Origin: Gammaproteobacteria bacterium
Lineage (GTDB): Bacteria > Pseudomonadota > Gammaproteobacteria > GCA-2400775
Length of the DNA stretch: 44,314 nucleotides
Direction: 5' to 3'
NCBI GenBank assembly: GCA_015492075.1
Contig: WGFU01000026.1
Location: 1-44,314, forward strand
The notes beneath the pieces are model-generated. The model was not told the DNA's origin and did no database searches. It saw only the letters and a list, made by a program, of their open reading frames with translations. How positions within the stretch are numbered: the stretch's first letter is position 1; each line of letters begins with the position of its first letter. Position numbers and translations under genes: made by a program. This document shows positions 10,438 through 44,314 of this stretch, in pieces.

Positions 10438-11648
10438 CCGATAACCATCCTTCACTGGCGGATAATCAACCGCTTATTGTGCGACAGATCAATGGTACTG
10501 AGTTCACCATTCTCGGTACAGCGCATGTCTCCCAGGTCAGCGCCGACGCCGTAGCTGCCTTAATCGCCGAGCACCGGTTTGACGCGGTGGCGATCGAGCT
10601 GTGTGCTGATCGGCTGCATTCAATGGATGATGCCGAAGCGGATGCGCAGCTTGATTTATTTCAGGTGATTCGTGCGGGCAAGGTACCCATGGTGGCCGCC
10701 GGGCTTATGTTAAGTGCGTACCAACAACGTTTGGCCGACAAGCTGGATATCAAGCCGGGCGCCGAGATGCGCATGGCAATAGCTCTTGCCCGTGAATCTG
10801 ATACGCCGCTGCTACTGATTGATCGCAATATCGGCACCACATTGCGACGTGTTTACAAAGGTGTACCGTGGTGGAAGCGCATGATGCTGGTGACGGGACT
10901 CTTTGGCAGCTTGTTGAGTCGTGCCGATGTTTCCGAGGCCGATATCGAAGAGCTGAAGCGTGGTGATATGTTAAACCAGGTGTTTAGCGAATTCTCGGGT
11001 GAAGCGCCAGAGATTTACGCGACCTTGGTCGATGAGCGTGACCAATATATGGCGGCCAAGCTGGTGCAATACGCTAACGAGCATCCCGGCGAAAAGGTTC
11101 TGGCAGTGGTCGGCGCAGGTCACCTCAATGGTATGGCCAAATATATGGATGCTCCGGCGGATGATCTGGGCCAGCGTTTACGCGCGCTAGGCACGATTCC
11201 AGCAGGGCGCGGCATGACCAAATGGCTGCCATGGTTGGTAGCCGTTTTGGTGGTTACCGGGTTTGCAATTGGCTTCTCGCGCAGTCCGGAGCTGGGTTGG
11301 CAGTTGCTATTGGAGTGGTTGCTTATTAACGGTGGCTTGGCGGCTTTAGGCGGCATTATTGCTCTCGCCCACCCGCTAACCATTGTCACAGCATTTTTGG
11401 CGGCGCCACTGACCTCGCTCAATCCGATGCTGGGGGTAGGGATGGTTACCGGCCTGGTCGAGACCGTGCTACGCAAGCCTAGGGTGATGGACTTTAAACG
11501 CCTCAGAACAGACGCGACCTCGTTTAAAGGCTGGTATCAGAACCGGGTATCGCGCACGCTGCTGGTGTTTTTGCTGACAACATTAGGCTCAGCAGCCGGA
11601 ACCTATGTTGCGGGTTTTCGCATAGTTCAGTTGCTAGGCAGTCATTAA
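10434..11648 (+). CDS. TraB-family protein (TraB/PrgY), membrane
   Basis: The 404-residue protein has an N-terminal TraB domain (about 10-235) with motifs ILGTAHVSQVSADAV, DAVAIELCADR and LAVVGAGHLNGM. The GTAH and GAGH histidines and the IE(L)C glutamate are the conserved residues thought to form a metal site as in Tiki-like proteases. The C-terminal 140 residues are hydrophobic with four predicted membrane segments. Homologues inhibit pheromone signals in enterococci and occur widely with unknown roles. It is translationally coupled to the retropepsin gene, an odd pairing of two possible membrane proteases. Confidence 0.88.
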   Translation: MTDNHPSLADNQPLIVRQINGTEFTILGTAHVSQVSADAVAALIAEHRFDAVAIELCADRLHSMDDAEADAQLDLFQVIRAGKVPMVAAGLMLSAYQQRLADKLDIKPGAEMRMAIALARESDTPLLLIDRNIGTTLRRVYKGVPWWKRMMLVTGLFGSLLSRADVSEADIEELKRGDMLNQVFSEFSGEAPEIYATLVDERDQYMAAKLVQYANEHPGEKVLAVVGAGHLNGMAKYMDAPADDLGQRLRALGTIPAGRGMTKWLPWLVAVLVVTGFAIGFSRSPELGWQLLLEWLLINGGLAALGGIIALAHPLTIVTAFLAAPLTSLNPMLGVGMVTGLVETVLRKPRVMDFKRLRTDATSFKGWYQNRVSRTLLVFLLTTLGSAAGTYVAGFRIVQLLGSH

Positions 11649-11667
11649 CCGGTATTCAAATCTTATT

Positions 11668-11686
11668 GACAATCATTATCATTAGC
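11668..11686. promoter_or_regulatory. Fur box upstream of bfd
   Basis: GACAATCATTATCATTAGC matches 16 of 19 positions of the Fur consensus GATAATGATTATCATTATC. It is 58 bases before the bfd start, so iron repression of bfd is expected, as in other Proteobacteria. Confidence 0.8.
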
Positions 11687-11743
11687 ATTATTGTGGATCC
11701 TAAGTGAATGTTTTATGTATTTCTCATCCAGGGGGTTCAGCCA

Positions 11744-11956
11744 ATGTATGTCTGTCTCTGTCACGGTATCACCGAGCGGGATATTGAGTCAGCTGTTGAT
11801 GAGGGTGTGCGATCACTGAAAGAATTGTCGGCTACCTTGGGTGTTGCGACCCAATGTGGCAAGTGTTCATGCCATGCCAAACAATGTCTGCGTGAATCCA
11901 TTGACAGGCGGCATGAAGGCCAGCAGATGCATTATGCTGCTATCACAGCGATATAG
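11744..11956 (+). CDS. bfd: Bacterioferritin-associated ferredoxin Bfd
   Basis: [2Fe-2S] protein that binds bacterioferritin and passes electrons to its haem to release stored iron. From MYVCLCHG the four cluster ligands are C4, C6, C38 and C41, identical in spacing to E. coli Bfd. The open frame begins at an ATG at 11708, but the family start at 11744 is preferred because it places the CLC motif correctly and a GGGGG lies upstream. The product is 70 residues. It is Fur-box controlled and converges on bfr. Confidence 0.93.
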   Translation: MYVCLCHGITERDIESAVDEGVRSLKELSATLGVATQCGKCSCHAKQCLRESIDRRHEGQQMHYAAITAI

Positions 11957-12068
11957 ATGTGGCGGCAAGTGAGTTTGGCCCGCTAGCGGACATAGCTGCA
12001 GGGTTATTTAGCAGGGCAAAGCAGAGATCCTGTGCCAGCGGTTCCGTAATAGATAAACTGTAAACGAT

Positions 12069-12095
12069 AACAAGGGCTGCATTGCAGCCCTTGTT
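12069..12095. terminator. Bidirectional hairpin between bfd and bfr
   Basis: AACAAGGGCTGC-ATT-GCAGCCCTTGTT is a perfect 12-bp stem located between the two convergent stop codons. On the minus strand it is followed by ATCGTTTACAG, only weakly T-rich. Confidence 0.75.
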
Positions 12096-12118
12096 GCATA
12101 GGGTCTGCTGAGCTGATT

Positions 12119-12598
12119 TTATTCCGGCATGTCGTAGGCGGCAGACTGCAAGTAGTTTTGGATGCCCAGTTTATCGACCAATCCCAGTTCGGTTTCCAGC
12201 CAGTCGATGTGTTCTTCCTCGCTTTCCAATATTTCGGTAAACAAGTCGCGTGTGACATAGTCTTTGACTGTTTCGCAATGAGCAATTCCGGCGATGTAAT
12301 GTTCACGTGCCAGGTATTCCTGTTTCAGATCGGCTGCCAAAACCTCGGGCACATCCTGACCAATCATCAGTTTGCCAAGGTCTTGCAGGTTCGGTAAGCC
12401 TTCAAGTAGCAAGATACGGTCAATAATTCGCTCAGCATGTTTCATCTCGCTGAATGATTCTGCGTATTCTATTTTCCCCAGCTTCTTTAAACCCCAATTT
12501 TCGTACATTTTCGCATGCAAAAAGAACTGGTTAATAACGGTTAATTCGTTTTTCAGTGCACCGTTTAAATATTCTATAACCTTGGCATCGCCTTTCAT
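12119..12598 (-). CDS. bfr: Bacterioferritin
   Basis: A 159-residue iron-storage protein that forms 24-mers. It conserves the diiron ligands E18, E51, H54, E94, E127 and H130 and the haem-binding M52, exactly at the E. coli Bfr positions. The ferroxidase centre should therefore be active and haem bound between subunits. AGGAG lies eight bases upstream of the ATG. It is convergent with bfd, its partner for iron release. Confidence 0.96.
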
Positions 12599-12831
12599 GG
12601 TGTTTGCTCCTGCGAGATAATGTTGGCCTAAAAATATGCGAGCAGGCTATCATTCAGTACTGTTGGTGTCAACTTAAGTGTTTGTTTTAAAAGGTAAATA
12701 GGAATAATTTTCATTTCGATAACGTGTCCGTTTGCGGCTGTATCTCATCTCTTTCCATTAGGCTTCGAATATCCGTTTTAGTGCCCTAATCGTTTACAAT
12801 GCTGGTATAAACGATTCATTGCGGGAGCAAC

Positions 12832-14064
12832 ATGAGTAAGGCACAAAGCAAGGCGCAACGACGAGTCACTGTGGCAGTAAAAGTAGGTAAGCACACGGTT
12901 GGTGGCGGTGCTGCAACGGTGGTGCAGTCGATGACCAATACTGATACTGCTGATCTTGAATCCAGCGTCCAGCAAGTTGCGCAATTGGCCAAGGCAGGTT
13001 CAGAGTTGGTGCGTCTAACAGTTAACAATGAAGACTCGGCGCGACAAATTCCCTACATCCGTGAACGGCTCGAGGCCATGGGTATTGATGTGCCGCTGGT
13101 GGGTGATTTTCATTTCAACGGTCACACCTTGCTTGAAAAGCATCCCGCCTGCGCTGAGGCGCTGGCCAAGTATCGGATCAATCCTGGTAATGTTGGCCTG
13201 GGTAGTCGGCGTGATCCGCAGTTTGCCAAGATGATTGAATTTGCCTGTCGGTACGATAAACCGGTTCGTATCGGTGTTAATTGGGGTAGCCTCGATCAGG
13301 AGCTGCTAGCGCGCATGCTGGATGATAATGCCGCCAGCGAGTTCCCCAAGCCATTAAACGAAGTCACCCATGCCGCGCTTATCGAATCCGCTTTGTCCAG
13401 TGCTGCCAAGGCCGAAGAGCTGGGCCTTGCCCACAATAAAATCATTCTTTCTTGCAAGATGTCGGGTGTGCAGGATTTGATCGAGGTTTATCGTGATCTG
13501 GCTACGTGCAGTGATTATCCGCTTCATCTGGGCTTGACTGAGGCCGGCATGGGTGCCAAAGGCATTGTCGCCTCGACCGCCGCGCTCAGTATATTACTGC
13601 AAGAAGGCATTGGCGATACCATCCGTATTTCCCTGACACCAGAACCGGGTGGTGACAGAACGCAAGAAGTCCTGGTGGCGCAGGAGATCCTGCAGTCTTT
13701 GGGGCTGCGAGCATTCACACCGACAGTGGTGGCCTGCCCAGGTTGCGGTCGTACTACCAGCGAATACTTTCAGCAGTTAGCACAAGATATTCAATCGTAT
13801 TTGCGTCACCAAATGCCGGTTTGGCGTAAACAGTATCCTGGTGTCGAAGACATGACTGTTGCCGTCATGGGTTGTGTCGTGAATGGCCCGGGTGAGAGTA
13901 AGCACGCCAATATCGGCATTAGTTTGCCTGGTACAGGCGAGCGCCCCGTCGCGCCCGTTTACATTGATGGTAAACGTCATATCACTTTAAAGGGGGATCA
14001 TATTGCTAACGAGTTTCAGAACATGGTGAATGATTATGTGGAGAAAAATTATTCGATAGATTGA
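12832..14064 (+). CDS. ispG: 4-hydroxy-3-methylbut-2-enyl diphosphate synthase IspG, long form
   Basis: The penultimate enzyme of the MEP isoprenoid pathway; it converts MEcPP to HMBPP with a [4Fe-4S] cluster and flavodoxin/ferredoxin electrons. The cluster ligands are C302 and C305 ([10 protein letters not shown]), C348 and E355 ([11 protein letters not shown]), with the same C-to-E spacing as E. coli. The 410-residue chain is longer than the 372 of E. coli. Extra residues lie around [16 protein letters not shown] and between C305 and C348 (43 against 32 residues), like the longer forms of other Proteobacteria. GGGAG precedes ATG 12832. No neighbouring MEP gene is seen. A secreted unknown protein follows. 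Confidence 0.96.
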
Positions 14065-18751: not shown

Positions 18752-20626
18752 ATGCTTTTGAACTTACGTAATGCCGTTTTGGATCTCGGTGGTCCGACGA
18801 TTCTCAATCATGTTGATTTCCAGTTAAACAAAAATCAGCGTGTAGCCTTGTTGGGTCGTAATGGTTGTGGAAAATCCACTTTATTGAAAGTGCTGGCCGG
18901 ACAAATTGCGCCTGATTCCGGCGTCAGGAAAATCAACCAGGGCGTTACGCTGGGTTATCTCGGTCAAGCAATGCCAGACGATATCCCTAAAACGGTTTAT
19001 GAGCTGGTCGCGCTTTCATTTGGTGAGGCCGGGCGTTTGCTGCTTCAGAGTCACAATGTAGCAGACGATGATCATGCGCACCATGCTGCGATGAGTGAGC
19101 TTGATACCTGGACGGTGGCTGCTCGCATCGAAAAAGTCATATCGCAGTTTCAGCTCGACCCCGAGATGGAATTCGCCGCCTTATCTGGCGGTCGACAGCG
19201 CCGCGCCTTACTAGCTAGCGCCATCGCAACTGAGCCTGACATACTGTTGCTTGATGAGCCGACCAACCACCTTGATTTAGACTCAGTGCTTTGGCTCGAG
19301 AACTATCTTGCTGCGCGTAAGGGTGCTTTACTGTTTGTCTCGCATGACCGCGAATTTATTTCACGCCTGGCGAATCGTGTTGTCGAATTGGATCGGGGTC
19401 AGCTGCATCAATATGATGTGACTTATAAAGATTATTTAGCCTTGCGTGAGCGAAGAGATGAAGAAGAGCTACGCCACAATGCTTTGTTTGATAAAAAACT
19501 GGCGCAAGAAGAACGCTGGATTCGTCAAGGTGTGCAAGCACGGCGTACGCGCAACGAAGGCCGTGTCAGGGCCCTAAAAGCGCTACGTGAAGACCGTGGT
19601 GCGCGGCGTGACAAGCAGGTCAGCGCCACGCTTAAGCTAGATGCCGGTGAACGATCCGGGCGCTTGGTTGCCGAGGTGGAAAAAATCAGTTTTAGTTATG
19701 ATGGTCATCCTATCATTAGTGATTTTTCAACTACGATTTTACGTGGTGACAAGATTGGTTTTATCGGCCCGAACGGCGTCGGTAAGACAACCTTGTTACG
19801 GCTATTGTTGGGTGATCTCACGCCCGCATCGGGTCAAGTCAGGCTTGGCACCAAGCTTGAGGTCGCCTACCTCGACCAGCAGCGCAGCGAAATTGATAAT
19901 GATAAAAGTCTGGTCGATAACGTTTCTCTGGGTAGAGAGTTTATCGAAGTCAACGGACAATCACAGCATATCATTGGCTATTTACAGCAGTTTTTATTCG
20001 ACCCTCAGCAGGCGCGCGCACGTGCTGGCTTATTGTCTGGTGGTGAGCGTGCACGTCTATTGTTGGCGCGTCTGTTTAGCCAGCCTGCAAACGTGTTGGT
20101 GCTTGATGAGCCCACTAACGATCTTGATATCGAGACATTGGAGCTGCTTGAAGAATTGCTGTTGCGCTATGAAGGGACACTGTTTTTGGTTAGTCACGAC
20201 AGGGCACTGCTCAATAATGTGGTGACCAGCTCGCTGGTGCTGGAAGGTGGTGGCCAGATTGGCGAATATGTTGGTGGTTATGATGATTGGTTGCGTCAGC
20301 GCCCCAAAAAAAATGTATTACAAGATAGCAGCAGGAAAATAGTTAATAATTCCCGGCTGGGCAAGTCTGCGCCGGCGAAGCCGGCAACAACAAAAAAAGC
20401 TAAGACTGCAAAGCTTAGTTATAAAGATCAGCTCGAGCTAGATGCCTTACCAGCGCAGATAGCTAGTCTTGAGGCGGAGCAAGAGCCTCTCTATACCGCG
20501 TTATCCAGTCCAGATTTGTATGCCGCGGCCCCTGAAAAGGTGCGAGACTTGAAGAAACAGCTTGAAGACATCGAGTCTAAACTAAATAGTGCATATAAGC
20601 GTTGGGAGCAGTTAGAAGCTTTGTAA
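18752..20626 (+). CDS. uup: ABC-F ATPase Uup
   Basis: A soluble protein of 624 residues with two ABC domains: Walker A GRNGCGKST with signature LSGGRQRR, and Walker A GPNGVGKTT with signature LSGGERAR, each with a LLDEPTN or VLDEPTN Walker B. A charged linker (about 235-310) lies between them and a C-terminal coiled-coil DNA-binding-like domain at about 535-624 (KKAKTAKLSYKDQLELDALP). This coiled coil is characteristic of Uup among ABC-F proteins. Family members affect ribosome function and, in E. coli, precise excision of transposons. It follows rnd closely. Confidence 0.93.
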   Translation: MLLNLRNAVLDLGGPTILNHVDFQLNKNQRVALLGRNGCGKSTLLKVLAGQIAPDSGVRKINQGVTLGYLGQAMPDDIPKTVYELVALSFGEAGRLLLQSHNVADDDHAHHAAMSELDTWTVAARIEKVISQFQLDPEMEFAALSGGRQRRALLASAIATEPDILLLDEPTNHLDLDSVLWLENYLAARKGALLFVSHDREFISRLANRVVELDRGQLHQYDVTYKDYLALRERRDEEELRHNALFDKKLAQEERWIRQGVQARRTRNEGRVRALKALREDRGARRDKQVSATLKLDAGERSGRLVAEVEKISFSYDGHPIISDFSTTILRGDKIGFIGPNGVGKTTLLRLLLGDLTPASGQVRLGTKLEVAYLDQQRSEIDNDKSLVDNVSLGREFIEVNGQSQHIIGYLQQFLFDPQQARARAGLLSGGERARLLLARLFSQPANVLVLDEPTNDLDIETLELLEELLLRYEGTLFLVSHDRALLNNVVTSSLVLEGGGQIGEYVGGYDDWLRQRPKKNVLQDSSRKIVNNSRLGKSAPAKPATTKKAKTAKLSYKDQLELDALPAQIASLEAEQEPLYTALSSPDLYAAAPEKVRDLKKQLEDIESKLNSAYKRWEQLEAL

Positions 20627-37786: not shown

Positions 37787-37963
37787 ATGCGATCTGCACC
37801 AAAAGAAAGGCAAAACAAAGGTTTAAGTCTGGATTCGAATGATTTCTTGCTTGATGAAATGGAAGAAGTCAGCGCCGAGCATATTCAGATTGATGCTTGG
37901 GGCAATGAATGGGACGATAGTGGCGACTTTATGGACATGGATTTTCGACTCGTCGAAGATTGA
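37787..37963 (+). CDS. 58-residue acidic protein of unknown function
   Basis: ATG 37787 is preceded by a GGGTG. The product is very acidic, with an N-terminal basic part (MRSAPKERQNKG) and a tail with many Asp/Glu and Trp residues (WGNEWDDSGDFMDMDFRLVE). It is not a shadow of another gene. No family is recognised; acidic small proteins of this kind can be inhibitors or DNA mimics, but there is no direct evidence here. Confidence 0.55.
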   Translation: MRSAPKERQNKGLSLDSNDFLLDEMEEVSAEHIQIDAWGNEWDDSGDFMDMDFRLVED

Positions 37964-38143: not shown

Positions 38144-39112
38144 GTGCTTTTCCCTGGTTGGTGTATGGATAGCATAATAATGAATCTACGAAGGGGTGCT
38201 TTTGCCCTGGTTCTCTTTTTTTTTGGCACTTCTGTTGCGCAGGGGAAGGAGCTTGTCGCGGTATTTCAGCCCAATCTGCGCGCTCCCTATGATCAAGTTT
38301 TCCGCTCTATTATTGACGGTATCAAAGAGGAAGCCAATTTTAAGCTCAGCGTAAAAAGAATTGGTGATCGCTATAGCCCCAACACATTAAGCGCGTGGCT
38401 GGATAAGAAAAATGTAAAAGTGATTATCGCGTTGGGCAGCCGTGGCCTCGAGGCGGCTAAATCTGTTGCCAATGGTCGGCCTATTATGGCTGCTGCGTCG
38501 CTACTTGCGCCTGACCCTGAATTCAATAATGTCGGTGGTATCAGTTTGGCTGCTGATCCTGAGATTATGTTTTCTGAACTCAAGCGTCTATTTCCTACCG
38601 TACAAAAAGTCTGTGTTGTCTATAGCCCGAAACATAATGAGTGGTTGATGCGCCGTGCTGTGAAGGTGGCGCAAGAGCATGACATCAAGCTAAAAATCAT
38701 ACCGGCAGAGAATTTGAGGCAGGCGGCTATTCAGTATAAGTCTGTGCTCAACGAGCTAGTGCCTGGCCGCGATGCACTGTGGTTGCCGCTGGATCCGGTG
38801 ACCGTCGAGAACCGGACCATTCTGCCCTTGATTTTACGCGTTGCCTGGGACAGGAACTTGACGCTGATATCGAGTAACGCACCGCATGCCAAACGCGGCG
38901 TGTTATTTTCAACGTTTCCACAAAATATGGCAATGGGACAGAGCATTGCGGATAGAGTCAATCATTGGCTAGTGTCTAGTGAGCTTGATTTCATGATCAA
39001 GCCGCTGAATGATCTGGGTCTGGCCATTAATGTGCGGACTGCTTCGCATTTAGGTGTCAAGCTCGACAAACAAGACCTGGAGCGGTACGAACTCAAGTTT
39101 CCGCAGAATTAG
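38144..39112 (+). CDS. Periplasmic substrate-binding protein (ABC_sub_bind family)
   Basis: A 322-residue exported protein with a Rossmann-like periplasmic binding fold (VAVFQPNLRAPYDQVF, VIIALGSRGLEAAKSV, VCVVYSPKHNEWLMRRAVKV, WLPLDPVTVENR). It resembles PF04392. GTG 38144 is chosen because AGGGAG lies six bases upstream; ATG 38180 lacks such a site but begins the typical signal peptide MNLRRGAFALVLFFFGTSVA. No ABC permease or ATPase is in the window. The sensor kinase gene follows with an 8-base gap, so this protein may feed a ligand signal to the kinase rather than a transporter. Confidence 0.82.
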   Translation: MLFPGWCMDSIIMNLRRGAFALVLFFFGTSVAQGKELVAVFQPNLRAPYDQVFRSIIDGIKEEANFKLSVKRIGDRYSPNTLSAWLDKKNVKVIIALGSRGLEAAKSVANGRPIMAAASLLAPDPEFNNVGGISLAADPEIMFSELKRLFPTVQKVCVVYSPKHNEWLMRRAVKVAQEHDIKLKIIPAENLRQAAIQYKSVLNELVPGRDALWLPLDPVTVENRTILPLILRVAWDRNLTLISSNAPHAKRGVLFSTFPQNMAMGQSIADRVNHWLVSSELDFMIKPLNDLGLAINVRTASHLGVKLDKQDLERYELKFPQN

Positions 39113-39120
39113 AACGAAGA

Positions 39121-40758
39121 ATGAAGGCGCTGTTACGACAACTGATTCCACCCGAGACCGAGTTTCGGCGCCAGATAATGATTCTGGTTAGCGTTGGTAT
39201 TCTTGTTCTTGCCCTGGTCTCCTCCCTGATCACTGCGTGGGTCAACAGCGAAAATGAACGGGATCAACTGGTCAAGCAAAGTTTGCAGTTGACGAAAAGT
39301 TTTGCCGAGCAGAGTGTGTTGGCAATGCTGTTTGAATCGGCAGAAAATGCACAGGATTCCGCCGCCGCAACGCTGTCTTTTCCCAATGTCGTTCACGTCT
39401 TGCTACGCAAGCCTGATGGTGGGGTATTGCTGGATAAGGGGGGAATGTTTGATGGCGAGCTTGATTCTGACAAGGTTGGGCGTAAGGCCATGGAAGAGTT
39501 GATGCACTGCAACTCACCTGGTGATGACGCCCAGTTGATTCATGAAACATCTGGCTATCTTTATTTTTGTGCGCCGATACTGGAGCGACGGCCGGATTCC
39601 CATACGGGAATATTTGTTGGCAGCGACGACATGCCGAATCGAATAGGCTATGCCCATGTCATGGTGAGCAAGGCTGCGCTAAAGGCACACCGTACCACAA
39701 CCATTATTCAAAATAGCGCAGTCTCCTTAGCTCTGGCGCTGTTAATGCTGGTTGTGTTGCAAAAAGTGATTTCACGTATTACCACGCCGTTGAGCGAATT
39801 ATCGACCTTGATGCGCGAACAGGATGCAGAAACCGAAACCTCGCGGGTAGCCGTCAAGGGGCCAATAGAAATCCAGGATATGGCACGCGCGTTTAACGCC
39901 ATGATGGATGTGTTGGACAAGCGGGATCTGCGCCTGCGGCACCAAAATGACACCCTGGAAAACCAGGTGCGGGCACGAACCCGTCAATTACTCGATGCAC
40001 GTGATGCAGCAATATTGGCGAGCAAGCATAAGTCGGCTTTTCTTGCCAATATGAGTCACGAGCTAAGAACACCAATGAATGCCGTGCTAGGTTATACCGG
40101 TATGGTGATCGAGGATATGCGCGACGGTGGCTTTCATGTAGAGGATTGTCTTGAGGATCTAAGCCGTGTTGAAAATGCCGGCAAACATTTGCTGTCAATG
40201 ATTAATAATATTCTTGATCTGGCCAAGATCGAGGCTGGGCGTATGGAGCTGGAACTCGACACTGTCGATATCAGGCAACTGGTACGCCAGGTTGAGGACA
40301 CCGTGTTACCCATGGTGATGGAGAAAAATAACAAAATCGAGTTGGACGTCACTAGGGACGACAGCACACTGGTGATGGATCCGGTCAAGTTAAGGCAAAT
40401 ACTTGTTAACCTGTTAAGCAATGCGGCCAAGTTTACTAAAGACGGTGTGATTACCATCAAGGTTGAGCACAATGAGGAGGCCCTGTATTGCGCTGTCATC
40501 GACAACGGCATAGGTATGGATGAGGAGCAACAACAGCGTATATTCAGGGCGTTTAAACAGGCTGATATGACCACCACCAAAAACTTTGGCGGTACCGGCC
40601 TTGGCTTGACCATATCGCAGCGCCTGTGCACCCTGATGGGAGGAAACATAAAAGTAGTTAGCGCGCCGGGTAAAGGCTCCTGTTTTTATTTCACCATTCC
40701 TCTACCAGTGCAAGAGCATCAGGAAGACCAGGATCTACCACCCAGTTACAGTATTTAG
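39121..40758 (+). CDS. Membrane sensor histidine kinase
   Basis: The 545-residue kinase has membrane segments at about 20-42 and 198-218 flanking a periplasmic sensor of about 155 residues. HAMP (about 218-270), a coiled coil, HisKA with phospho-acceptor H313 in FLANMSHELRTPMNAVLG, and HATPase_c (N box LLSNAAKFT, G1 IDNGIGMDEE, G2 GGTGLGLTIS) follow. There is no receiver domain and no response regulator next to it. Gene order suggests that it senses the neighbouring ABC_sub_bind protein or its ligand. Confidence 0.92.
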   Translation: MKALLRQLIPPETEFRRQIMILVSVGILVLALVSSLITAWVNSENERDQLVKQSLQLTKSFAEQSVLAMLFESAENAQDSAAATLSFPNVVHVLLRKPDGGVLLDKGGMFDGELDSDKVGRKAMEELMHCNSPGDDAQLIHETSGYLYFCAPILERRPDSHTGIFVGSDDMPNRIGYAHVMVSKAALKAHRTTTIIQNSAVSLALALLMLVVLQKVISRITTPLSELSTLMREQDAETETSRVAVKGPIEIQDMARAFNAMMDVLDKRDLRLRHQNDTLENQVRARTRQLLDARDAAILASKHKSAFLANMSHELRTPMNAVLGYTGMVIEDMRDGGFHVEDCLEDLSRVENAGKHLLSMINNILDLAKIEAGRMELELDTVDIRQLVRQVEDTVLPMVMEKNNKIELDVTRDDSTLVMDPVKLRQILVNLLSNAAKFTKDGVITIKVEHNEEALYCAVIDNGIGMDEEQQQRIFRAFKQADMTTTKNFGGTGLGLTISQRLCTLMGGNIKVVSAPGKGSCFYFTIPLPVQEHQEDQDLPPSYSI

Positions 40759-40791
40759 CTAGCAGGCCAAGGGGCTAGCCGAATATGGCTG

Positions 40792-42933
40792 TCAGATACG
40801 ATATTCCACGCTGAGCAGGCAGTGAATACCGGCTAATGGCAAGTCATTGGGAATAGGCGGTGCCGGGTCGCCATTCAGGCTGGGCGCACGGGCATCCTGA
40901 TCCAGCGCATTGCGCACCGCCAGGGTGATGGTCAATGGTAGTTGTTGCAGCTTATGGCGCAAGCCTAAATCAAGCCAGATGAAATCATCGATATTCTCAC
41001 GCGGGTCACCCGCGGCACGTTGGCGACCAGCGACCCAATTCATCTGCATGCTTAACCACCAATTGTCTGTGAACATCCAGTTGCTGCGCAGGTAAATCTG
41101 ATGCTGCGGTGCATTGGCTGCGTCGCTATTCGTTGACTTGTCAGTGGAATGCTGGAACGCATAATTGCCCAGTAGCGCCAGGGTCGGGCTGAATTGCCAA
41201 TCTGTTTCCCATTCCAGGCCGTAGCCGGTCTGGTCACCGGTATTTTGCGCCGTCGAAACACCACTGCTGTCCGGCACAAAACGAATAATATCGCGCCATT
41301 GGTAGTAAAAGAGATTAAGCTTGGCCGCGATGCTTTGTGTGGGCTGATAGTTCAAGGCCCATTCAAGCGTATCGATGATTTCCGGCTCAAGATCAGGGTT
41401 GCCCAGTACGACCGGGTTGTTGATATTTCTCAACTCGGCAAAAGAGGGTGCGCGAAAGGCACGGCCGTATAACAGTTTGGCCGTTACATTATAGGCGGCG
41501 TGCCAGACCAGGGCGATGCGCGGGTTAAGTGTGCCGGCAAAATCAGAGTAATGGTCCCAGCGCAGCCCGCTGGTCAGATTCCAGTCGCGGGCAAAGGCCC
41601 ATTCGTCCTGGACAAAGCTGTAAAAATTAGTCCGGCTGCTGGGCCGGTGAAACACCAGGTCCGGGTTGTTGCTGGTGTCGACCAGGCTGATATTGTCATT
41701 AATGGGCGCGGGGAGCAGATTCTCGTCGATAATGAAGTTTTTGCTTTCCCTGATTTTGTCGACCTCGTTAAGATTAATGCCGGCACCGATACGAATACGA
41801 TGGTGACTGAAACCATGATAAAACGCCGAGCCACCCAGGCGTATATGGCGTTCAAAAACCTCCGGATTACCGATAACGCCTGGAGGGAACAGCGCCCCGT
41901 TAGGAAAACGCGCGCCCGCCGGTGATAGGAATAAACGGGCTATTACGCTGGTATCAAAATAACTGAGTTGGGCATTGAGGTCCCAGTTGTCATAACTGTG
42001 CTGGTTGCGATACGTCAGGTCGGCATTGAAACGATCACTACTCGATTTTCCTTCAAGGTCGAGTGAGAAGCCTATTCCTGCACCGTTACCGATGTTTTTT
42101 CGACCCTGATAACCCAGGCGTAGTTGCCAGTCACCGCGTGTGAGGTCGACACGGGCATCGATGTTTTCACCCTGGATGCTAGCGTGACCGGGCGCATTGG
42201 AGGCCGACGTGCCGAGGCTGGCATCCAGCGCACTCTGGGCATCGGCTTCGATTAGGCCACCCTGGCCGTTATTATTGCTGTACTGCAAGGACAGCGCCAG
42301 CTCAACGCCGTTGCTGCGACGACCATGCAACAGCCAGCTTGATGAGCTATCGGCAGAGCTAATGGCGGCCCCTAATTGGGTGCCGTTAATTTCCCTGGCG
42401 GATTTGGTGATGATATTGATGGTGCCGGCAAAGGCATCGGCGCCATAGAGGGCTGAGCCGGGGCCGCGCACCACCTCGATGCGTGAGATATTCCTGACTG
42501 GCATACCACCCCATACCTGATTGCGATCACCAAAAAATACATTGGTGATCGGTATGCCATTAATGAGTACCAATACCTGAGAACTGTTTTGCGCGTAGAT
42601 ACCGCGAATGATATAGACAGGCGAGTAAGAGTGTGCTGATCGTGAGACATGCAGGCCGGGAATCGTTTCGAGCACATCATCAATGTCATTGGCTCCTATC
42701 GCTTCGATGTCTGCGGTCGTGATCACACTGGCGACGGCGGGGGCAAGAGACAGGGGTTGGCTGGCCCCCGTGGCCAGGCTGGTCATGCCTTCTCCGGCGT
42801 AGAGCATGTCCAGTTCGTCGGATGCGTCGGCCCGGGTTTGAGTGTTAAAGAAGCAATACAAACATAAAACAAGTGTCAACTTGCAATATCGCACTATCTT
42901 GCCCGAGTATCGGTAATGATTGTTGGCATCCAT
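40792..42933 (-). CDS. TonB-dependent receptor, first copy
   Basis: The 713-residue outer-membrane receptor has a signal sequence (about 1-35, ending TRA), a plug domain at about 60-175 (VASVITTADIEAIGANDIDD, RIEVVRGPGSALYGADAFAG) and a beta-barrel. The C-terminal end is SVEYRI, with a terminal aromatic/hydrophobic pattern as expected for Omp85/Bam recognition. The mid-barrel shows motifs typical of siderophore/vitamin receptors such as RWDHYSDFAGTLNPRIALVW. The second copy is its close paralogue and lies just upstream on the same strand. Ligand not deducible. Confidence 0.93.
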   Translation of the reverse strand: MDANNHYRYSGKIVRYCKLTLVLCLYCFFNTQTRADASDELDMLYAGEGMTSLATGASQPLSLAPAVASVITTADIEAIGANDIDDVLETIPGLHVSRSAHSYSPVYIIRGIYAQNSSQVLVLINGIPITNVFFGDRNQVWGGMPVRNISRIEVVRGPGSALYGADAFAGTINIITKSAREINGTQLGAAISSADSSSSWLLHGRRSNGVELALSLQYSNNNGQGGLIEADAQSALDASLGTSASNAPGHASIQGENIDARVDLTRGDWQLRLGYQGRKNIGNGAGIGFSLDLEGKSSSDRFNADLTYRNQHSYDNWDLNAQLSYFDTSVIARLFLSPAGARFPNGALFPPGVIGNPEVFERHIRLGGSAFYHGFSHHRIRIGAGINLNEVDKIRESKNFIIDENLLPAPINDNISLVDTSNNPDLVFHRPSSRTNFYSFVQDEWAFARDWNLTSGLRWDHYSDFAGTLNPRIALVWHAAYNVTAKLLYGRAFRAPSFAELRNINNPVVLGNPDLEPEIIDTLEWALNYQPTQSIAAKLNLFYYQWRDIIRFVPDSSGVSTAQNTGDQTGYGLEWETDWQFSPTLALLGNYAFQHSTDKSTNSDAANAPQHQIYLRSNWMFTDNWWLSMQMNWVAGRQRAAGDPRENIDDFIWLDLGLRHKLQQLPLTITLAVRNALDQDARAPSLNGDPAPPIPNDLPLAGIHCLLSVEYRI

Positions 42934-43062
42934 GTCGGCGGTGATGAGCGAAACGGCTTAGGTGTCGGTATACAAGGGGTACATCGGGTGATCAGAATTA
43001 GGCCAAATGCCATGTGTATCTATGTGCTTGAAAAATGATATTCGGTGCTCTATGAGGGAGTG

Positions 43063-44314
43063 TTAAATACGGTATTCGACGCTGACAAAACCGTGAATAC
43101 CGGCTAATGGCAGGTCGTTGGCGATAGCAGGGCCGGTACTGCCATTCAAGCTCGGTTCGCGGGCATCCTCATCAAACAGATTGCGTATTATCACCGACAC
43201 GTCGACCGGCAGCTTTCTCAGGCTATGGCGCAGGCCGAGATCGACCCAGGTGTAGTCATCGATTTCCCCGCGTGTATCACCGGCAGCACGTTTGCGGCTG
43301 CCTACCCAGTTCACTTGGGTATTCAGTTTCCAGCCATGAACAAACTGCCAGTCACTGCGCACATAAAACTGATGTTGCGGCGCATTGGCGACATCGCTGT
43401 TGCTGTCTTTGTCGGTGGATTTTTGAAAGGCATAGTTGGCAAGCAGCTTGTGTTTGGAACTGCTTTTCCAGTCGATTTCCCACTCCAGGCCAAAGCCGGT
43501 CTGGTCGCCGGTATTCTGTGCGGTCATTGCTGTGCTGGTGTTATTAGGGACAAAACGAATGATGTCACTGATTTCATAACGAAAAACATTCAAGGTAGTG
43601 GCAATATCTTGTGTCGGATGATAGTCAAAGGCCAATTCAATGGTATCGATTGTTTCCGGGTCGAGATCAGGATTGCCAAGCGCTACAGGGTTATTAATGT
43701 TTCTGGTTTCCTGGAACGATGGGGCTCTAAAGGCGCGACCGTATAGCAGCTTGGTGGTGAGATTGTAGGCCGATTGCCAGACCAGTGCCGCACGTGGGTT
43801 GACGGTGGTGCCGAAATCCGAATAGTTATCCCAACGCACGCCGGCGGTGAGGTCCCAGTCACGCGCAAAATACCATTCATCCTGAACAAACGCATATTGA
43901 ATGGTGCGGCTGCCCGGTTGCAAGAAGACCTGACTGGGGTCGTTTGTTGTCTCTGTCAGGCCGCCGGGGAGAAGCTCTGGAAACATGGCATTAATCTGAA
44001 AATTCTTGCTTTCTCTTACCTTGTCGATTGCATCATAGTTGACCCCTGCGCCGAGACGGATGCGATGGTCGGTGAAGCCATGGTAAAAGGCCGAGCCGCC
44101 CAGGCGTGCATGGCGTTCAAAGACATCGGGGTTGCCGATGACACTGTCAGGGAATGTGTCGCCACCAAAAGGAAAGGTGACACCGGCGGGAAACAGAAAC
44201 AGGTCCGATTTTGCGCTGGTGTCGAGATAGCTTAATTGTGCGGCGAAATCCCAGTCATCAAAGGTCTCTTCATTTTGATAGGTGAGGTCGGCATTAAAGC
44301 GATCACTATTACCT
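43063..44314 (-). CDS. TonB-dependent receptor, second copy (5' part outside window)
   Basis: The frame stays open to the window edge, although the first ATG inside is only at 43986. Reading upstream gives GNSDRFNADLTYQNEETFDD, aligned with DRFNADLTYRNQHSYDNW of the other receptor, and RESKNFQINAMF. The C-terminus is LPLAGIHGFVSVEYRI. It is a paralogue of the 40792-42933 receptor from a tandem duplication. Barrel residues differ most in the loops, so the two could bind related ligands. The visible part is the last 417 codons. Confidence 0.92.
   Translation of the reverse strand, partial: GNSDRFNADLTYQNEETFDDWDFAAQLSYLDTSAKSDLFLFPAGVTFPFGGDTFPDSVIGNPDVFERHARLGGSAFYHGFTDHRIRLGAGVNYDAIDKVRESKNFQINAMFPELLPGGLTETTNDPSQVFLQPGSRTIQYAFVQDEWYFARDWDLTAGVRWDNYSDFGTTVNPRAALVWQSAYNLTTKLLYGRAFRAPSFQETRNINNPVALGNPDLDPETIDTIELAFDYHPTQDIATTLNVFRYEISDIIRFVPNNTSTAMTAQNTGDQTGFGLEWEIDWKSSSKHKLLANYAFQKSTDKDSNSDVANAPQHQFYVRSDWQFVHGWKLNTQVNWVGSRKRAAGDTRGEIDDYTWVDLGLRHSLRKLPVDVSVIIRNLFDEDAREPSLNGSTGPAIANDLPLAGIHGFVSVEYRI

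Follow-up and report, generated by a model that had tools for sequence, protein, structure and literature searches.

The window analysed here is the entire contig C26 (44,314 bases) of a metagenome-assembled genome (MAG) of 1.65 Mb that is 80 % complete. Its last 6 kb contain the genes for a solute-binding protein (SBP), a sensor histidine kinase and two TonB-dependent receptors, which an earlier annotation of this contig (the original prediction) had grouped as a candidate uptake and sensing system. A check of open reading frames (ORFs) and Pfam domains across the window found all four genes at the positions claimed, as follows:

38144–39112, + strand: SBP of the ABC_sub_bind family (PF04392 match), 322 amino acids.
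39121–40758, + strand: sensor histidine kinase with HAMP, HisKA and HATPase_c domains.
40792–42933, − strand: TonB-dependent receptor 1, complete, with Plug and TonB_dep_Rec_b-barrel domains.
43063–44313, − strand: TonB-dependent receptor 2, C-terminal 416 amino acids, barrel only, with 64 % identity to receptor 1.

Only 8 bases separate the SBP and kinase genes, and receptor 1 is convergent with the kinase, with 33 bases between both genes. The description of two paralogous receptors converging on the SBP and the kinase is therefore accurate, although the layout is truncated because the window is the whole contig, which ends inside receptor 2. Tandem receptors are also present in genomes G001 and G002, the latter from the same genus.

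The SBP could start at GTG 38144 or at ATG 38165, and its relatives begin at the position matching ATG 38165. It scores 44 bits with PF04392, above the family cut-off of 25.9, and its sequence contains a signal peptide without a lipobox. The AlphaFold2 model (mean predicted local distance difference test score of 93.6) shows the two-lobed fold of SBPs; the nearest structures are 3lkv and 3lft, and the matches include XylFII, from the XylFII-LytS sensor complex, and the autoinducer-2 receptor LsrB. The SBP thus shares its family and its nearest solved folds with the TrpX-type ABC importers (3lft with Trp, and 3lkv), but it lacks a permease or ATPase partner and scores only 29.7 bits with the NCBIfam TrpX equivalog model, whose cut-off is 390. 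We found no match in this 80 % complete MAG to BPD_transp_2, which we take to be the permease family expected to partner ABC_sub_bind proteins, using a search whose control was positive in 12 of 14 genomes.

A profile built from 30 relatives of the SBP (A1) was run on 370 genomes of Gammaproteobacteria, of which 50 stood out clearly as a group, at E ≤ 1e-60. The kinase gene lies 3′ of the SBP gene, on the same strand and within 400 bases, in 47 of these 50 loci; in two more the distance is 415 and 690 bases, and the contig stops at the remaining one. The partner belongs to the same kinase family in all 49 loci, and a TonB receptor gene is found within the same stretch in 42 of the 50. As judged from gene neighbourhoods, the SBP is the partner of a kinase and not of a permease, and the conservation of receptor, SBP and kinase as one unit is supported. 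The proposed grouping of the four genes is thereby borne out, far beyond chance for the SBP and the kinase, and so is the absence of a permease for the binding protein. A complete ABC operon was looked for at the locus and none was found; together with the kinase partner and the lack of BPD_transp_2 in the MAG, this led us to reject a complete ABC importer.

Next to the receptor gene, the relatives have three more genes, whose order is constant: TPP, coding for an acetolactate-synthase-like thiamine-diphosphate enzyme, and CCL1 and CCL2, coding for two different proteins of ca. 270 amino acids each. A survey of the GTDB genome collection anchored on CCL1 found 143 relatives, 80 of which were kept; TPP was present in 78 of these loci, CCL2 in 79 and the receptor in 69. 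Gene order was counted in the 62 CCL1 loci whose downstream sequence spans 7 kb or more: the arrangement CCL1-CCL2-receptor-SBP-kinase was collinear in 34, and a further 8 contained the SBP and the kinase in another order. The same set with SBP and kinase, also in a different gene order, occurs in another class of the phylum (loci L246 and L247). Sequence comparison shows that the set formed by TPP, CCL1, CCL2, one or more TonB receptors, SBP and kinase is conserved over many families, and the cassette appears to be widespread in the Gammaproteobacteria (in the GTDB sense, including Gallionella, Collimonas and Dechloromonas) besides that other class.

The two arms of this set, enzyme-like and sensing, also co-occur across genomes. 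Of the same 370 genomes, 46 carry CCL2 and 50 an SBP of the group; both are found in 41 genomes, belonging to 25 families, only the SBP in 9, only CCL2 in 5 and neither in 315 (Fisher p = 5e-40, a value that overstates independence because the genomes are related and phylogeny is uncorrected). One of the 9 genomes with only the SBP is this MAG, whose contig is cut. The arms co-occur even when they are not adjacent, since they lie on different contigs in G041 and G081 and ca. 9 kb apart in G060. We therefore favour, with a probability of about 0.5, a reading of the locus as the sensing arm of a make-and-sense cassette whose ligand is made by the cell itself, the trio linked to the receptor-SBP-kinase unit being the putative producer. 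The original prediction stated that the ligand could not be deduced; its structure indeed cannot be proposed, but this was too pessimistic about its likely source. Its own view was that receptor, SBP and kinase sense a ligand from outside, which would leave the enzyme genes as mere neighbours or as targets of the regulation, and not as makers of the ligand. The 9 genomes that carry the SBP without CCL2 fit this view, and pairs of SBP and sensor kinase commonly sense outside nutrients (PMC11113362), but the strong co-occurrence of SBP and CCL2, even with unlinked arms, makes it quite improbable. What does stand of the proposal that a ligand crosses the outer membrane, is captured and is read by the kinase is that receptor, SBP and kinase form one conserved unit in which the SBP goes with the kinase; uptake of an outside nutrient is not supported.

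The SBP gene adjoins that of a membrane histidine kinase with a periplasmic domain (approximately residues 43–197), for which a mixed helix-strand structure is predicted. A domain sCache_4 was matched in 10 of 17 members of the kinase family and not in this kinase, and a structure search with the kinase model matched kinase cores only, being uninformative on the sensor domain. In many relatives the kinase is a protein of ca. 1,500 amino acids with sCache_4, HisKA, HATPase, receiver, Hpt, GGDEF and EAL domains (L034, L138), and in L032 a gene for a response regulator with an EAL domain adjoins the kinase gene. In the genus of this MAG the kinase stands alone, and Pfam detects no receiver domain in the kinase of the window. 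Genes for a STAS protein and a receiver-SpoIIE phosphatase, similar to HsbA/HsbR, are located upstream of TPP in several lineages (L033, positions 11440–13495, as well as L093, L095, L096, L094 and L040), and represent a second type of output besides the cyclic di-GMP (c-di-GMP) enzymes.

The nearest solved relatives of TPP are BbmA (8x3x) and CsmA (8x3z), with only moderate identity, and its catalytic motifs RHE and GDG...ND are conserved. For both CCL1 and CCL2 the nearest solved relative is the citryl-CoA lyase 6hxp (E of 1e-10 and 3e-16, respectively). They share the fold of citryl-CoA lyase and citrate synthase, but are two different short subunits encoded by adjacent genes and score far under the NCBIfam citryl-CoA lyase cut-offs. 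The His-His-Asp catalytic set of those enzymes was not recovered: the GYGH histidine and the NVDG aspartate are replaced in all rows of both alignments, while CCL2 also lacks the first catalytic histidine, whose assignment in CCL1 is ambiguous. A Caulobacter “citryl-CoA lyase subunit” was discarded as a counterpart because, judging by the table in its source, it is a CitE-type annotation in another context. The trio could also work in the direction of degradation, with the receptor and an unlinked permease importing an outside compound, TPP and the lyase-like pair degrading it, and the SBP and kinase sensing the substrate. TonB receptors are usually nutrient importers, 2-hydroxyacyl-CoA lyase is one of the lyases in the superfamily of thiamine enzymes, and citryl-CoA lyase is the nearest relative of CCL1 and CCL2 in fold. 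Nevertheless, such a catabolic system is rather improbable, given that the set includes neither a permease nor a transcription regulator, that the replaced residues affect every row of both lyase-like families, and that the output is c-di-GMP.

The two receptors are two of only three matches in the MAG, where TonB, one of the genes that the original prediction proposed to look for, is encoded elsewhere. Model matches relate them to CirA, FepA and heme receptors. A cobalamin receptor was rejected (106 bits with BtuB models against a cut-off of 600), and also a FecA-type transducer, since the domains that Pfam found in receptor 1, the complete one, are limited to Plug and barrel and do not include STN, the signalling domain. 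The locus resembles FecA-FecR in that an outer-membrane TonB receptor is part of a sensing unit, but it differs in the lack of STN and of a FecR or sigma factor partner at the locus. Regulation by iron through a local Fur box was likewise discarded, because a scan of the window gave no match at the locus. The only Fur-box-like site of the window (11668–11686, − strand, three mismatches, none expected in shuffled sequences) is situated far from the locus, just past a gene ending at 11648.

This evidence bears on a chelator system, in which TPP, CCL1 and CCL2 would make a metal-binding hydroxy acid, the receptor would return the metal complex and the SBP-kinase pair would report on it. Hydroxy acids are plausible products of such chemistry, and the kinship of the receptors and the presence of the iron oxidisers Gallionella, Sideroxydans and Ferrigenium among the carriers are consistent with this idea. 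We consider it unlikely, however, because none of the genes examined at the loci was recognised as a siderophore synthetase, the MAG has no matching permease and the locus no Fur-box match, and the outputs fused to the kinase are c-di-GMP enzymes, not a sigma factor or an iron regulator. A siderophore uptake system would be expected to show Fur control and inner-membrane import; the search covered Fur boxes and, among importer families, BPD_transp_2, and gave no match to the former at the locus or to the latter in the MAG. More generally, the first suggestion of nutrient uptake from outside (iron, cobalamin or sulfur, for instance) is not supported, given the lack of a matching inner-membrane importer and of a local Fur box, and the tie to three enzyme-like genes.

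The enzyme arm was also looked for in this genome. A search of the MAG did not find CCL2, suggesting that the arm was missing, but this was overturned by the finding of TPP on contig C12 (18253–20151), 72 % identical to that of G002. It is followed by the first 77 codons of CCL1, 79 % identical to the G002 gene, where the contig stops at position 20,529, and is preceded by a gene resembling the G002 gene for a PAS-GGDEF-EAL protein (C12, 16448–18139). In G002, a single contig (L114) contains the complete order PAS-GGDEF-EAL, TPP, CCL1, CCL2, receptor, receptor, kinase and SBP, and the assembly of G001 is broken within the same tandem receptors (L026, L088). Most likely, then, the ends of C12 and C26 face each other across CCL1, CCL2 and the receptor. 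The gene for the GGDEF-EAL protein, located ahead of TPP, may belong to the kinase circuit as well. Directly before these genes there is a Wsp-like chemosensory cluster (C12, 7215–16073; L243, 2216–11074), coding for a methyl-accepting chemotaxis protein (MCP), CheW, CheR, CheW, CheA-receiver, CheB and receiver-GGDEF, of which G002 shares at least the part from MCP to CheA (L114, 1–5924). This cluster may join the same c-di-GMP network.

In the cycle that we propose, TPP would join small carbon units and CCL1 and CCL2 would complete or modify the product, which would then leave the cell. A TonB receptor would bring it back into the periplasm, where the SBP would bind it and, once loaded, would contact the periplasmic domain of the kinase. 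The kinase would relay the signal by phosphorylation, leading to changes in c-di-GMP; for this genome, a separate protein would have to act as the response regulator. The sequences support the parts and their association, and from these we infer production, export, uptake, binding and phosphorelay. A more specific version, namely a circuit for communication or self-sensing, without a description in the literature searched, in which a diffusible signal made by the trio re-enters through its own TonB-dependent receptor and is handed by the SBP to a c-di-GMP-linked kinase, is put forward tentatively, as a possibility with the odds somewhat against it. For a quorum-sensing or autoinducer circuit, synthesis genes would be expected in the genome and unit of the receptor; what we observed is an enzyme-like trio that is linked to the sensing arm and co-occurs with it, and that may or may not make the ligand.

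Several observations weigh against a make-and-sense cassette, beyond the relatedness of the genomes behind the co-occurrence statistic and the 9 genomes with SBP and no CCL2. No exporter belongs to the core set. CCL1 and CCL2 may not be enzymes, so the pathway is an assumption, and a thiamine enzyme such as TPP could cut as well as join. The join between C12 and C26 is taken from a relative, and no regulator is assigned to the kinase, which stands alone in this genus, so that the c-di-GMP output is carried over from relatives. Lastly, in 20 of the 62 CCL1 loci this SBP is missing from the vicinity. Roughly half of these 20 are of a Marinobacter-Hahella type with another sensor, as in M. algicola (L183, 3951–14868), where genes for YfiR/HmsC, a CHASE8 kinase and a response regulator with GGDEF and EAL domains precede TPP-CCL1-CCL2, and an SBP_bac_3 gene lies behind the receptor. 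The presence of these c-di-GMP-related genes beside the trio in M. algicola nevertheless counts in favour of the cassette. The variant resembles c-di-GMP control of the YfiBNR type in that its trio is accompanied by a periplasmic protein like YfiR/HmsC, whereas the locus in the window uses an SBP and a histidine kinase instead.

The closest functional parallels to the sensing arm are two systems in which a solute-binding protein signals through a sensor kinase. LuxPQ senses autoinducer-2. As in XylFII-LytS and LuxP-LuxQ, both cited in PMC11113362, the gene for a periplasmic SBP lies here beside that of a membrane histidine kinase, and the signal would be read, through a putative contact between both proteins, rather than imported. 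The present set differs from both in the family of its SBP, ABC_sub_bind, in having a TonB receptor as the gate of the outer membrane and in the three biosynthesis-like genes that it includes. Each part is thus of a known kind, and what appears to be new is the combination of this trio with a TonB gate, an orphan SBP and a c-di-GMP-linked kinase. A literature search found no description of the cassette, which is weak evidence of novelty because subscription journals were mostly outside its coverage; the same search returned no description of the chemistry of BbmA and CsmA.

If correct, the make-and-sense reading would add a class of chemical signals to the ways in which bacteria set c-di-GMP, with an unusual entry route, energy-driven outer-membrane uptake used for sensing. 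It would be relevant to marine, groundwater and iron-oxidising lineages, and would give a role to orphan ABC_sub_bind proteins that look like transporter parts. Whether or not the cell makes the ligand itself, the six genes form a clearly delimited, unassigned functional module.

The genes upstream of the SBP gene code for DUF1249, VKOR-DsbA and NUDIX proteins, with no transporter among them, and a small ORF (37787–37963, + strand) for a strongly acidic protein of 58 amino acids sits between the DUF1249 and SBP genes. A promoter scan gave no excess over shuffled sequence. In G004, from the same genus, a vanadium-haloperoxidase-like gene (DUF6851 and VCPO_2nd; L028, 11724–13226, − strand) is located between the kinase and receptor genes. 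Finally, other lineages (L078–L083) contain a second subtype of CCL1 and CCL2, more distantly related (ca. 30 % identical), next to a TonB receptor gene, and these loci often include the same SBP and kinase too.

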